This document shows, piece by piece, positions 853-3,732 of a stretch of 38,085 bases of DNA. A model generated the notes under the pieces. It was not told the origin of the DNA, did not search any database, and saw only the letters and a list, made by a program, of their open reading frames with translations. Source of the DNA: a virus; IMG/VR virus record IMGVR_UViG_3300042987_000838, positions 1 through 38,085 of that record, one strand, 5' to 3'. The position numbers and the translations under genes were made by a program. Each line of letters starts with the position of its first letter. The first letter of the stretch is position 1.

Positions 853-1062
853 TTAGGTCTGCTCGCCACGGCGCGGACCCGTGACATCGCGGAAGCGCAG
901 GTCAACTATTTTCCGAACCGCTTCGCGTCCTTCGATGCGAGCAATCTCGGTTTCAAGTTCGTTGGTCACGGCCTCGAGGTCTTCGAGCGCGGAACGCACG
1001 CGGCGCTGAACGACAGCGCGGGCGCGGAACAGGTTGGCGAGGATTTCGTCGTTTGTTTTCAT
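853..1062 (-). CDS. Hypothetical 69-residue helical protein
   Basis: The start ATG at 1062 overlaps the stop of the DnaB gene in an ATGA junction, which fixes this start against a longer open frame reaching 1344. The protein is highly charged and almost entirely helix-forming, with many Arg/Glu pairs (RARAVVQRRVRSALEDLE) typical of a small coiled coil. It has no recognisable domain. Translational coupling to the helicase suggests co-expression with replication functions, which is inference only. The next 75 bases downstream (778-852) hold no gene I can support. Confidence 0.7.
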   Translation of the reverse strand: MKTNDEILANLFRARAVVQRRVRSALEDLEAVTNELETEIARIEGREAVRKIVDLRFRDVTGPRRGEQT

Positions 1063-2405
1063 TTCGTGGCTGGATGAAAGGTTGCGGTTGCCCGCGTGAA
1101 ATAAAAGCTCTGCGCTGCGGTGCCGTCGTCGCGGCCTTTGGCTTGGATGACGTTGGTGAAGAAACGCGGCCGGTCGGCCTCGAAGTCGGTGTCCCGCTGC
1201 TGCTGGCCCGTGATCGCGTCCTCGTTCGGACGGTGGAGCAGGATGACCTTGTCGGCGTCCTCCTCGACGCTGCCGCTGTCCTTGAGGTCGGTGACGTGTG
1301 GCTCGCGGTTGCCATCCTTCGCGCTCTCGCGATTCAACTGCCAAAGCATGACGACGAGGATGTCCAGCTCCCGCGCAAGGCGCTTAAGCGTCTTCGTGAC
1401 GAGCCCGCACGCGTTCACCTTCTCGCCGCCGCCCTTCGCCTCGTAAATCTCCTTCACGAGCCCGCCGTGATCGACGAAAAGGACGTCCAGTCCGCTGCTG
1501 GCGTGGAGCGCCCGCGCACGCGCCTCGATGCGAGCAAGCGACGAGTCGCGACTTGAAACCGTGATGTTGCGGCCGCGAAGTTCGACGAGCGCCTTGCGGA
1601 TGTCTGCCTGCGAGGCTGGGTGCTCGGTGTGAACGCGCCGAAGGCCGACGCCGGCGAGCGAAGCCGCGATTTGCAGCGGAACCTTGTGCGGCGCGACTTC
1701 GAGCGTGACGTAGTAGCAACGCCGCCCAGCGTTCGCGAGGTGCGTCAGGATCGGCCGAGCAAGCGAGGATTTGCCCGAGGACGAACGGCCCGCGATGACG
1801 ACCAACTGTCCGCGCTCCATCTCGCCGAAGCGTTGATTGAGGACCGGCCAAGGGAACGGCATGAGCTCCTTCCGCTCGGCGCCGGCGATCTTCTGCTCGA
1901 GTTCCGTTTGCGCCTGCTGGACGAGCTCGTCCCAGTTCGCCTCGGCGTCGGAGTCCGATCCGGCCGCGATGTTAAGCAACTCACGCGCACCGTTGCCGAT
2001 GACCTCGGAGATCGGATCGGTCGCCTCGGCCTCCTGCTGGACGCGCTCGGCTAAATTCTGCGCGATGCGGATCGCGTCACGCGCCACGGCGATGCGCTGG
2101 ACCCGCTCGAGGTAATACTTCGCGTTGAGCGCGATCGGGATTCCGGTCGTGAGCCCGACGATGTAAAGATGCCCGCCGGCGGAGTCGAACCGCTGCCGGG
2201 CGATGAGTTCGGCGTAAAGCACGTCCTCGGTTAGCGCCATGCCCGCGGCCATCATTTCGCGCAGCGTGTCGAAGATGACTTGATGCCGCGTATCGTGAAA
2301 GGCGCGACGACTCAAGTTCGCGCCGAGCATCGCTTGCAGCGTGCGGCCATCGTCGACGAGCGCCGCGGCGAGGAGCAGCCGTTCGTGGTCAAGGTTGGCG
2401 ATCAT
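1059..2405 (-). CDS. DnaB-like replicative DNA helicase
   Basis: This 448-residue protein has the full DnaB plan. An N-terminal helical domain (about 1-110, including AQ/ALLLAAALVDDG-type packing) is joined by a linker to a RecA-fold helicase domain. Walker A is GRSSSGKSS at 206-214. Walker B is LDVLFVDHGG at 306-315. The H3/H4 region begins VVMLWQLNRE at 351 and ends in SVEEDADKVILLHR, the usual DnaB signature. DnaB hexamers unwind the fork 5'-3' on the lagging-strand template. No primase domain is present, and none is seen elsewhere, so host DnaG is presumably recruited. The gene overlaps the upstream initiator gene by ATGA. Confidence 0.95.
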   Translation of the reverse strand: MIANLDHERLLLAAALVDDGRTLQAMLGANLSRRAFHDTRHQVIFDTLREMMAAGMALTEDVLYAELIARQRFDSAGGHLYIVGLTTGIPIALNAKYYLERVQRIAVARDAIRIAQNLAERVQQEAEATDPISEVIGNGARELLNIAAGSDSDAEANWDELVQQAQTELEQKIAGAERKELMPFPWPVLNQRFGEMERGQLVVIAGRSSSGKSSLARPILTHLANAGRRCYYVTLEVAPHKVPLQIAASLAGVGLRRVHTEHPASQADIRKALVELRGRNITVSSRDSSLARIEARARALHASSGLDVLFVDHGGLVKEIYEAKGGGEKVNACGLVTKTLKRLARELDILVVMLWQLNRESAKDGNREPHVTDLKDSGSVEEDADKVILLHRPNEDAITGQQQRDTDFEADRPRFFTNVIQAKGRDDGTAAQSFYFTRATATFHPATK

Positions 2406-3091
2406 AGGTACGCCTTGACGACGGTTCCAGTTGCCTCAATCGGCCGCTCGCAACGCAGCAGCCAATTCACGAACCGTCGGCGGCTTGGAAGTTTGCGGTG
2501 GGCTTCGCACCACGACTTCATTCGCGCAAACTCGCGTTCAACGTCGATGCCGGCATACGCCTTGTCGGTTTTGATGATTGCGAGCCAAGCTGCATCCGCA
2601 TCCGGCGCGGACTCATCCGCGCAGCCCTGTTCCTTTCCTATTCCTATTCCTTTCCTTTCCTTTCCCTTCCTTTCCGTTTGGTCTCCGCTTTGGTTCTGCT
2701 TTGGTTCTGGTTTGGTTGTGCTTTGGTTGTGCTTCGCTCCGTTGGCGCGGACGGCTTTCAGTTTTGCTTCGCTCCTGCTTAAACCTCCGAGGCGACCTGC
2801 TTCGCGCTTTGCTTTCACTTCGCTTTCCTTGTCAACAGGATAAGCCCATATCTCAAGCGTGTCTCCGTCCCATTTCCAGAGCGCAGATTCGATCGACACT
2901 TCGGCTTGCGTGACGCGGGCGAGTTGCTGCCACTTTCGGTCCGCCCAGCCTTTGCAATCGGCAATGCGTCCACCGTTTTCCTGTCCGACGCAGTAACGAA
3001 GCAAGCAAAGCCACGTTGCGCGTGCTGTTGGTTCTGATCCCACGAACTCCTCCGAGTCGAGAGTCGTGGTTTCGATGTTAAGCCAGTTCAT
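2402..3091 (-). CDS. Phage replication initiator / helicase-loader protein
   Basis: A 229-residue protein directly upstream of and coupled to DnaB. Residues 1-85 look like a winged-helix DNA-binding domain (with a CVGQENGGRIADC stretch). Residues 96-155 are a low-complexity basic linker rich in K, N, Q, E and G, and the last 60 residues form a second helical domain resembling DnaD/DnaT-type loaders. The position next to DnaB and the two-domain-plus-linker plan match lambda O / DnaD-like initiators. The linker DNA carries four 11-bp tandem repeats and a polypurine tract (see repeats). The start ATG at 3091 lacks a good Shine-Dalgarno and is preceded by a strongly structured leader. The exact family is not certain. 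Confidence 0.75.
   Translation of the reverse strand: MNWLNIETTTLDSEEFVGSEPTARATWLCLLRYCVGQENGGRIADCKGWADRKWQQLARVTQAEVSIESALWKWDGDTLEIWAYPVDKESEVKAKREAGRLGGLSRSEAKLKAVRANGAKHNQSTTKPEPKQNQSGDQTERKGKERKGIGIGKEQGCADESAPDADAAWLAIIKTDKAYAGIDVEREFARMKSWCEAHRKLPSRRRFVNWLLRCERPIEATGTVVKAYL
2630..2675. repeat. Polypurine/polypyrimidine tract in initiator gene
   Basis: The plus strand is 46 bases of C and T, broken only by A at 2640 and 2646, so the minus (coding) strand is nearly all purine. It encodes a Lys/Glu/Gly-rich linker. It lies immediately beside the 11-bp iterons. Asymmetric tracts of this type flank the iterons in oriLambda, where they help unwinding. It may serve the same role here. Confidence 0.85.
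2687..2730. repeat. Four 11-bp tandem iterons, candidate replication origin
   Basis: On the plus strand four units follow each other without gaps: GCTTTGGTTCT (2687-2697), the same again (2698-2708), GGTTTGGTTGT (2709-2719) and GCTTTGGTTGT (2720-2730). Partial copies flank them. Because 11 is not a multiple of 3, the repeat cannot be kept for the sake of the protein sequence. It repeats as DNA, one copy per helical turn. Position inside the initiator gene linker is the arrangement of oriLambda. Function as an origin is inferred. Confidence 0.7.
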
Positions 3092-3231
3092 GTTCGTAAA
3101 GTAAGACCCCGGCCCGCCTGCGGTGAGACTTGCCCCGAGACAACGACGAACTCGGTGCAGGCGCAGACGGCCGGGGAAATTGATTGATGACTGACATGAT
3201 CGACGAGTCTCACCTCGCCTCCTGTCGCTGA
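3092..3231 (-). promoter_or_regulatory. Structured leader, pseudoknot-type RNA candidate
   Basis: The leader of the initiator gene holds perfect inverted repeats: 3107-3114 with 3169-3176 (8 bp, CCCCGGCC), extended by 3115-3121 with 3157-3163 (7 bp), an inner hairpin 3135-3139 with 3151-3155 (5 bp), and 3122-3130 with 3206-3214 (9 bp, GGTGAGACT). The last pair joins the loop of the first stem to upstream sequence, which is pseudoknot geometry. The outer stem ends 15 bases before the start codon, and no U-run follows it, so translational control is more likely than termination. A 39-codon frame (3197-3078) overlaps it and is an alternative explanation. Confidence 0.6.
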
Positions 3232-3732
3232 CTAAACTTCAGGCGGTTCCTCGCGCAAGTCGTTTCTCGCGACGTCGAGCGGATCGCCGTGCGTAGCAAT
3301 TGAAACCCAGACGCCCGGCCGCTGACCCTCGACGACGTAGCCCTTGCAGGCGATGATCGTCGTGACCTGCGAATCGTCGCGCCAGACGCGGCCGTCCTTG
3401 GTGATGACGTCGAGGACGAGCTTCGTGAGGTTGTCTATATCCGGCTTTCCGGTCGGCTCCTTTGGTGCTTTCTCCTTGAGCCCGTGCTTGCCGAAATGCG
3501 CCTTCGGTCGAGGCATGAAGAAGGTCATCGTCACGCGTACTGGCCCGAGCGTCGGCTCTGCGCCGATCTCGTCGAGCTTTTGCTTCAGCGCAAAGTAGAC
3601 CTGCTCCTTCCATTCGTCAGCCGTTCCGGGATTGTACATCCTCGCCGAGTATTTGTTGCCGAAGCGTTGAGCGAACGCCCGCGCCCTCGGTTGGCCTTTC
3701 GGTAGGCCGTAGACTTGAAAGCTGATCGTCAT
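3232..3732 (-). CDS. rusA: RusA-family Holliday junction resolvase
   Basis: A 166-residue protein of the RusA fold, a dimeric endonuclease that cuts Holliday junctions and other branched DNA. The signature KPDIDNLTKLVLDVI is at about 97-110, followed by VWRDDSQV at 117-123. These supply the conserved metal-binding acidic residues (D98, D100, D119/D120) and Lys104. The N-terminal GLPKGQPRAR strand is also family-typical. The length is slightly above the 120-residue E. coli protein because of a loop near 75-95. The gene follows the mini-HTH gene in an ATGA overlap. It likely clears recombination or replication junctions before packaging, alongside the RecT-like/exonuclease pair. Confidence 0.92.
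   Translation of the reverse strand: MTISFQVYGLPKGQPRARAFAQRFGNKYSARMYNPGTADEWKEQVYFALKQKLDEIGAEPTLGPVRVTMTFFMPRPKAHFGKHGLKEKAPKEPTGKPDIDNLTKLVLDVITKDGRVWRDDSQVTTIIACKGYVVEGQRPGVWVSIATHGDPLDVARNDLREEPPEV

Follow-up and report, generated by a model that had tools for sequence, protein, structure and literature searches.

What lies between a resolvase gene and a replication gene in a 38,085-base IMG/VR virus record (analyzed here over its whole length and referred to as the window), and what does it do there? The initial annotation proposed that the leader of the replication gene forms a cis-acting pseudoknotted RNA, with a 39-codon reading frame across the same bases as an alternative explanation in the form of a leader peptide. 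The structured RNA is supported, with covariation among its relatives as the decisive evidence, and the reading frame turned out to be no rival to it: both are parts of one device.

The locus and the fold of its element

The gap between the RusA-like resolvase gene and the initiator-like gene is filled by the element, and the surrounding genes all lie on the minus strand (Table 1). The initiator-like protein of the window itself has no PHROG or Pfam match; a member of its family (L188) matches PHROG 3926, replication initiation protein. On genome contigs, relatives of this initiator were located in three MAGs, two from Verrucomicrobia and one from Planctomycetota, and no element was found at the initiator loci of these three. 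No DNA similarity was found between the window and deposited phages. Many environmental phages that are akin to Verrucomicrobia viruses carry the element, and their hosts are probably Verrucomicrobiota.

Four perfect complementary pairs had been reported in the leader, and all are present: 9 bp (3122-3130/3206-3214), 8 bp (3107-3114/3169-3176), 7 bp (3115-3121/3157-3163), and a 5-bp hairpin (3135-3139/3151-3155). Among 3,000 dinucleotide shuffles of the 140 bases, a pair of at least 9 bp arose in 72, and a 9-bp pair crossing one of at least 8 bp in 3, whereas the nested fold without the pseudoknot is only modestly distinguished (z = -2.1, with 4 of 200 shuffles equally good). The 7-bp pair is an alternative register only; relatives keep 3162-3168 paired with 3116-3122, leaving G3115 bulged (alignment A6, see below). 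Base 3122 is common to A' and the main stem P2, which is broken by a 7- to 9-nt bulge and contains the further hairpin P3. The P1 stem has 4 bp, and its loop has 6 nt in the window versus 8 nt in most relatives. As annotated, the main stem ends (at 3107) 15 bases ahead of the ATG of the initiator gene (at 3091), and that ATG is without a Shine-Dalgarno (SD) sequence. The element was not reported by a simple promoter/terminator scan because the loop rule of that scan is limited to 3-8 nt.

Table 1. Coordinates of the element, its parts, and the neighboring genes in the window.
Feature	Position	Strand	Basis or remark
RusA-like Holliday junction resolvase (upstream gene)	3232..3732	-	PHROG and Pfam searches; its profile retrieved further loci (see below)
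P1 hairpin (target hairpin)	3204..3217	-	CGAG (3217-3214) with CTCG (3207-3204), 6-nt loop
A, 5' strand of the pseudoknot helix	3206..3214	-	GGTGAGACT; also SD-like for the leader ORF (GAGGTGA)
Leader ORF, 39 codons	3078..3197	-	spans the whole structure; 14-base overlap with the initiator start
P2 main stem, 5' strand	3162..3176	-	fold and alignment A6
P3 inner hairpin	3131..3159	-	loop TTCGTCGTTGT (3150-3140), at the b' position of C4
A', 3' strand of the pseudoknot helix	3122..3130	-	AGTCTCACC; between P3 and the main stem
P2 main stem, 3' strand	3107..3122	-	bulged G at 3115
T-rich tract directly 3' of the main stem	3098..3106	-	weak in the window, strong in most phage relatives
Replication-initiator-like protein (MNWLNIET...; downstream gene)	2402..3091	-	start codon without SD
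DnaB helicase, next after the initiator-like gene	1059-2405	-	neighborhood of the element

Relatives of the element and covariation of its helices

Relatives were gathered by initiator and helicase scans, pattern scans, an initiator profile scan, and a RusA profile scan. In the RusA set, the element was sought with two models: R1, built from eight elements of another type than that of the window, and R2, representing the window's own type (W-type). The RusA profile retrieved 80 loci, of which 79 were searched (L164 was left out); R1 found the element in 65 of them at E values of 1e-8 or better and R2 added three more, so that the element lies downstream of RusA in 68 of 79. This set includes contigs already known (L210, L221, L223, L236, and L161-L163) and yielded 31 distinct new sequences, 30 of which, after removal of a cut-off copy (L235), are independent of model building. 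Alignments were made type by type: A6 contains the W-type, A7 served for the test of the whole structure, and A9 holds the 30 new sequences only. No description of the element was found among the matches listed in open-access literature searches on pseudoknot leaders of phage initiators, RNAs of Verrucomicrobia phages, RusA in combination with pseudoknots, and C4, subscription journals being mostly outside the reach of this search.

Chromosomal copies are rare: 1 of 387 Verrucomicrobiota genomes and, at E values up to 0.1, 5 of 273 genomes of one order were matched, three with the structure (L148, L150, and L151) and two without it. The weak genome matches L152 and L153, which lack the structure, were rejected as members. 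As judged from labels read from translations, the L150 copy lies near phage-tail-like and excisionase-like genes and the L151 copy near an integrase-like gene; that of L148 lies near a tRNA gene.

The 9-bp pseudoknot pair (A:A') is kept among relatives by compensatory changes, which the initial annotation had named as the decisive observation, in about a dozen pairing classes. In the test of 13 classes, A reads GGTGAGACT, GGTGACACT, GGTGATAG, GTGAGAGGT, GTAGAAA, GTGATAA, GTAAGAA, GTGAAAC, GTGAGAAA, CTGAAAG, TGAAAC, or TGAAAA; additional classes are GTGAAAA and GTGAAAG, from the new sequences, and GTGAGAA and GTGGAAA. The pair GGTGACACT/AGTGTCACC, for instance, replaces A/A' in L055, L060, and L108. 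With the A and A' regions delimited by hand or by pattern, the 13 classes reached a complementarity score of 94 against at most 82 in 200,000 re-pairings, and the score observed in the newer sequences was never reached in 20,000 re-pairings. One of the 13 classes is L037, which was rejected as a member: it looks similar by eye, but its A:A' pairing is poor (4 bp).

In alignment A9, for which A:A' had not been modeled, 99% of the cells of the pseudoknot helix are paired, 4 of its 7 pairs change on both sides, and A:A' reaches at least 6 bp in 28 of the 30 sequences, with L169 and L195 breaking the pairing. Over the whole structure, both sides change in 24 of 34 pairs in A7, with a covariation score of 0.61 versus 0.215 for shuffled and at most 0.15 for slid alignments, and in 7 of 31 pairs in A6. 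On the coding strand, G-U cells far outnumber A-C cells (50 versus 4 in A7, 12 versus 0 in A6, 62 versus 4 combined), which identifies the minus-strand RNA as the selected strand. Upon inspection, the invariant unpaired positions are short junctions only: CAA before A' and ATTT before P2.

The genes that follow near-identical or closely related elements encode an NW[LI]N-type initiator, a DUF1376/primosomal-type protein, an RTIKPEF-type replication initiation protein, an MSKRF-type protein, a small acidic protein, a DEAD/SNF2 helicase, and a protein that is HNH-like by eye and has no Pfam match. The element is thus tied to no single initiator, which makes autoregulation by a single initiator unlikely and speaks against the suggestion that the leader senses the initiator, since near-identical copies precede initiators of different families, the HNH-like protein, or the helicase. 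A small protein, about 60-80 aa long (e.g., MNTSEDGKEIICETKMEVSAYITEGGGIAIEQ), is often encoded between element and initiator (L199, L179, L207, L052, and L022); the one scanned, from L199, has no Pfam or PHROG match.

The leader reading frame and the second pairing

The 39-codon frame at 3197-3078 exists as annotated and ends inside the initiator gene. A corresponding ATG lies 16-27 nt from the start of the P1 hairpin in 50 of 52 distinct phage-borne elements, the exceptions, L032 and L077, having no ATG in the linker. The stop of this leader ORF falls within -8 to +17 of the next start in 42 of the 50, compared with 17.7 expected from random frames with the sequences kept, and in 32 of the 50 it forms exactly ATGA. 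Among representatives with less than 80% identity, all 16 have the stop near the next start (6.7 expected, P = 3.7e-7), as do all 12 with less than 70% identity (P = 3e-5). Seven of the eight misses have the stop at -18 (L165, L166, L170, and L199) or -27 (L185, L207, and L230), and in the eighth (L177) the leader ORF is fused in frame with the next gene. In the window, a 14-base overlap with the initiator takes the place of ATGA.

The frame is conserved at this place, whereas the peptide, judging from its sequence variation, is not. The leader frame varies relative to A' (L125 versus L113, L027 versus L032, and L203 versus L179): in L125 and L113, the RNA is near-identical in much of the stem and the frames and peptides differ, yet both end at ATGA. 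Because the frame differs against a conserved RNA, the peptides are unrelated in those stretches. Changes in the leader ORF fall on all three codon positions (20, 23, and 16), and 21 of 59 are synonymous versus 15.6 expected, a slight excess in raw counts; this spread suggests that selection on the peptide is weak, if any, with room left for weak selection. Six leader peptides had no Pfam or NCBIfam match at an E value of 10, including the Icd/Ash families, tblastn searches with two of them returned matches only at E values of 1 or worse, and the Phage_ASH model gave weak matches elsewhere only. An ORF at this place is conserved, and the 39-codon frame of the initial annotation is no rival to the RNA; a structured RNA and a conserved frame with an unconserved peptide can be one device. 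From these alignments, we are almost certain that the structure and the leader ORF are conserved features.

An SD-like match of at least 4 nt precedes the initiator in 2 of 15 loci with the element, both overlapping the stem, versus 22 of 37 homologues without it, which were picked by the analyst from the retrieved loci with near-duplicates skipped, and the contrast may partly reflect different upstream genes. In L148 and L150, both chromosomal, SD-like sequences are present and ATGA is missing.

A second pairing (B:B') is predicted between the P3 loop and the linker carrying the leader start. Across 44 elements outside the W-type (41 from phages and three from chromosomes), which have 21 different loops, the complementarity sum is 280.5 versus 208.6 expected (sd 10.1), a value reached in none of 50,000 re-pairings. 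The pairs include ATGAAAC/GTTTCAT (L002), GATGAACA/TGTTCATC (L168), and CAGGAC/GTCCTG (L113), as well as CATGAC/GTCATG (L190) as opposed to CATGAG/CTCATG (L180); by the same measure, complementarity is weak, at 3 bp, in L228, L237, and L177. Elsewhere, it comprises 7 bp in L115, is weak in L017, and is missing in L076. The P3 loop thus appears to pair with the leader start region in most relatives, but not in the window's type, in which the loop TTCGTCGTTGT is invariant and lacks a conserved cis partner in the eight elements checked, including the window. The invariance of the loop and the lack of a conserved cis partner raise the possibility that it has a target in trans. Around this loop, the P3 stem changes by compensation (window, L027, L079, L084, L108, and L032).

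Candidate mechanisms and known systems

From the comparative sequence evidence and by analogy with known systems, we incline, with some reserve, to the reading that the element is a C4-like switch with a target in cis, whose pairing would block a leader ORF to which the translation of replication initiators from several families is coupled. The comparison shows that the P1 loop presents A, that P2 with its one inner hairpin P3 holds A' between P3 and the P2 3' strand, and that A pairs with A'; in most relatives, though not in the window's type, the P3 loop appears to pair as well with the stretch around the leader start codon. Formation of A:A' (and B:B') would close the leader start to ribosomes, and the SD-less replication gene would be silent because its own start would depend on ribosomes coming off the leader ORF. 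Where a phage has a strong T-run, stem and T-run could possibly end transcription as well. If the pairing opened, a ribosome would translate the leader, melt the stem, and restart on the initiator; candidate openers are translation of the upstream resolvase gene, a trans-acting RNA copy, or a protein. Such a device would probably set when the phage genome is copied.

The comparison with C4 (RF01695, clan CL00128; phages P1, P7, and Gifsy-1) rests on a small upstream hairpin with the target in its loop (a 4-bp a1 hairpin in the c4-a1b1 model), on an unpaired a' strand that is complementary to a and follows the last inner hairpin, just before the main stem closes with its 3' strand, which is the position of A', and on an early phage control gene downstream. 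C4 also has a b' in the loop of an inner hairpin, the position of the P3 loop; complementarity of this loop to the ORF start is found in the non-W-type group and L115, is weak in L017 and missing in L076, and is not conserved in the W-type, including the window. In P1 and Gifsy-1, C4 has two inner hairpins, whereas the present element has one; unlike in C4, its target and antisense share one transcript, separated by only about 80-90 nt, and it sits between RusA-like and replication genes of phages whose hosts are probably Verrucomicrobiota. Phages P1 and Gifsy-1 both match the Rfam models C4 and c4-a1b1 (RF03163), whereas none of 10 viral records with the element matched the C4 model at E values up to 10. 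The single inner hairpin and the failure of this model make the element C4-like, not a member. The initial annotation matched it to no known riboswitch class, and Rfam agrees: the window had no match at gathering score, nor at E values up to 10 around the element, and neither did 13 further loci together with L148, L150, and L151. Conversely, the R1 model gave no real match when run on phages P4 and P1. PMC5320573 states that C4 prevents superinfection, that its specificity comes from a', and that its b' covers ribosome-binding sites in part.

The leader ORF, too, has a counterpart, in the isrK-orf45-anrP region of Gifsy-1. PMC4825925 describes orf45 as lying in the C4 region with varying amino acids and conserved nucleotides, reports that anrP needs translation of orf45 (translational coupling), and names a structural homologue, SeqA of phage P4, which has been linked to the restraint of replication genes. 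Our inspection of the sequence places orf45 through the C4 fold with its end at AUGA. A short ORF running through a C4-type RNA, a stop/start overlap (AUGA), varied amino acids, and coupling, here predicted, are common to both systems, whereas the gene controlled is an antirepressor in Gifsy-1 and a replication initiator here. The family as a whole shows the arrangement of a coupled leader ORF of the Icd/orf45 type (exactly ATGA in 32 of 50, near in 42), the window differing by its 14-base overlap. No IsrK-like RNA was found upstream of the element at Rfam gathering scores in the loci searched.

Leaders of plasmid replication genes offer further parallels. The repY-repZ leaders of IncI-alpha, IncB, and IncL-M plasmids (ColIb-P9) are said to contain a pseudoknot between a loop and downstream sequence and a leader ORF coupled to the replication initiator, and in this they resemble the present element. 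The repY-repZ pseudoknot, however, reportedly switches translation on through a fixed UUGGCG-type motif, whereas the present element has about a dozen pairing classes and its pairing is predicted to be the off state. A fixed UUGGCG loop near an initiator SD is not what the family displays: its loops are GTGAGA, GTAGAAA, GTGAAAA, and others, and the initiator has no SD. Attenuation of the pT181 type reportedly involves a hairpin and T-run just ahead of the start of the replication initiator; by contrast, no separate antisense transcript is known for the present element, which carries a leader ORF. If the C4-like reading is right, the logic of C4 and the leader ORF would extend from phages and sRNAs of Proteobacteria to distant phages in a simpler, self-targeting form, suggesting a portable translational gate on phage replication, placed before initiators of several families and equipped with a readable pairing code.

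As a tentative and rather doubtful extension, A/A' (with B/B' where it exists) may be a code for immunity or incompatibility: released by processing or termination, the P2-P3 body would act in trans on leaders of its own class and silence the replication genes of a superinfecting relative, in the manner of C4, an RNase P-processed RNA active in trans, in P1 and P7. At 85-95% core identity, substitutions accumulate in A at about double the rate of the remainder (0.155 versus 0.073 and 0.241 versus 0.099 substitutions per site) although paired changes are needed, which fits such a code; at 95% identity or more A is not faster (0.014 versus 0.019), which speaks against it. A likeness to the a1 and a2 targets flanking C4 in phage P1 also fits: in L151 (1501-1670, chromosome of G446), the P1 target hairpin GGCCGTGATAAGCC occurs twice, the second copy 43 nt after the start of A'. 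Against the code, the window showed no second target, and around the other 22 elements (about 0.6-0.7 kb to either side) the matches were confined to one of 8 nt in L055 and P1-like ones of 9 nt in L032 and L077, in a scan that required at least 8 nt and could therefore miss copies of 7-nt classes. If true, the code would divide an abundant lineage of Verrucomicrobiota phages, few phages of that host group having been cultured, into heteroimmune groups corresponding to the dozen or so A classes.

Among the alternatives to the C4-like switch, an unlikely one is a regulated intrinsic terminator, in which the stem and T-run would end transcription of the recombination genes, the pseudoknot would tune read-through to the replication genes, and the leader ORF would be secondary. 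In the phage copies inspected, the T-run does begin immediately at the base of the stem, and premature termination under the CI RNA reportedly restrains the replication genes of phage P4, according to PMC4825925. The tract is weak in the window (TCTTACTTT), however, and no strong one is present in the chromosomal L150 and L151; the bulged stem with another hairpin inside is ill suited; and the conserved leader ORF and the pairing of the P3 loop with the leader start would be left unexplained.

We consider it distinctly improbable that the leader is a riboswitch or operator controlling the SD-less start by binding a ligand or a protein, such as a phage replication protein or ribosomal protein S1. 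A compact pseudoknot, a U-rich tract beside the SD-less start codon, and the short conserved junctions would suit such a role, but unrelated proteins follow near-identical elements, so the downstream product is not the common ligand, and two freely co-varying antisense pairings are atypical of an aptamer core. For the metabolite switch considered in the initial annotation, no positive evidence emerged: no Rfam class matched, and conservation lies in the pairing apart from the short AA and ATTT junctions, the only invariant unpaired positions.

A leader peptide acting through its amino acid sequence, as a stalling peptide or small protein, is very improbable: the ORF in 50 of 52 elements and the slight synonymous excess are outweighed by frames that shift against a conserved RNA and by six peptides without a Pfam or NCBIfam match. 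Least credible is the structured single-stranded DNA element also raised initially, for example, a lagging-strand initiation site, which the adjoining initiator and helicase genes would suit and which the excess of G-U over A-C cells and the conserved leader ORF disfavor. An HDV-like or pistol-like ribozyme was set aside on inspection by eye, the strand order being unfit for pistol and no invariant unpaired bases resembling a catalytic core being seen, and a frameshift element was rejected by reasoning, because the structure precedes, rather than follows, any slippery site joining the frames.

Two further features of the window lie outside the element. The first, between two genes on the minus strand at 23292-23261, is an ordinary intrinsic terminator of high strength (14-bp stem, CTTTTTT), which can usefully serve as a reference for the shape of terminators in this phage. 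The second is a set of short, purine-rich repeats inside the initiator gene, at 2634-2700 (coding strand GGAAAGGAAAGG); they encode ERKGKERKG where relatives have GEGEGEGE and could be origin repeats.
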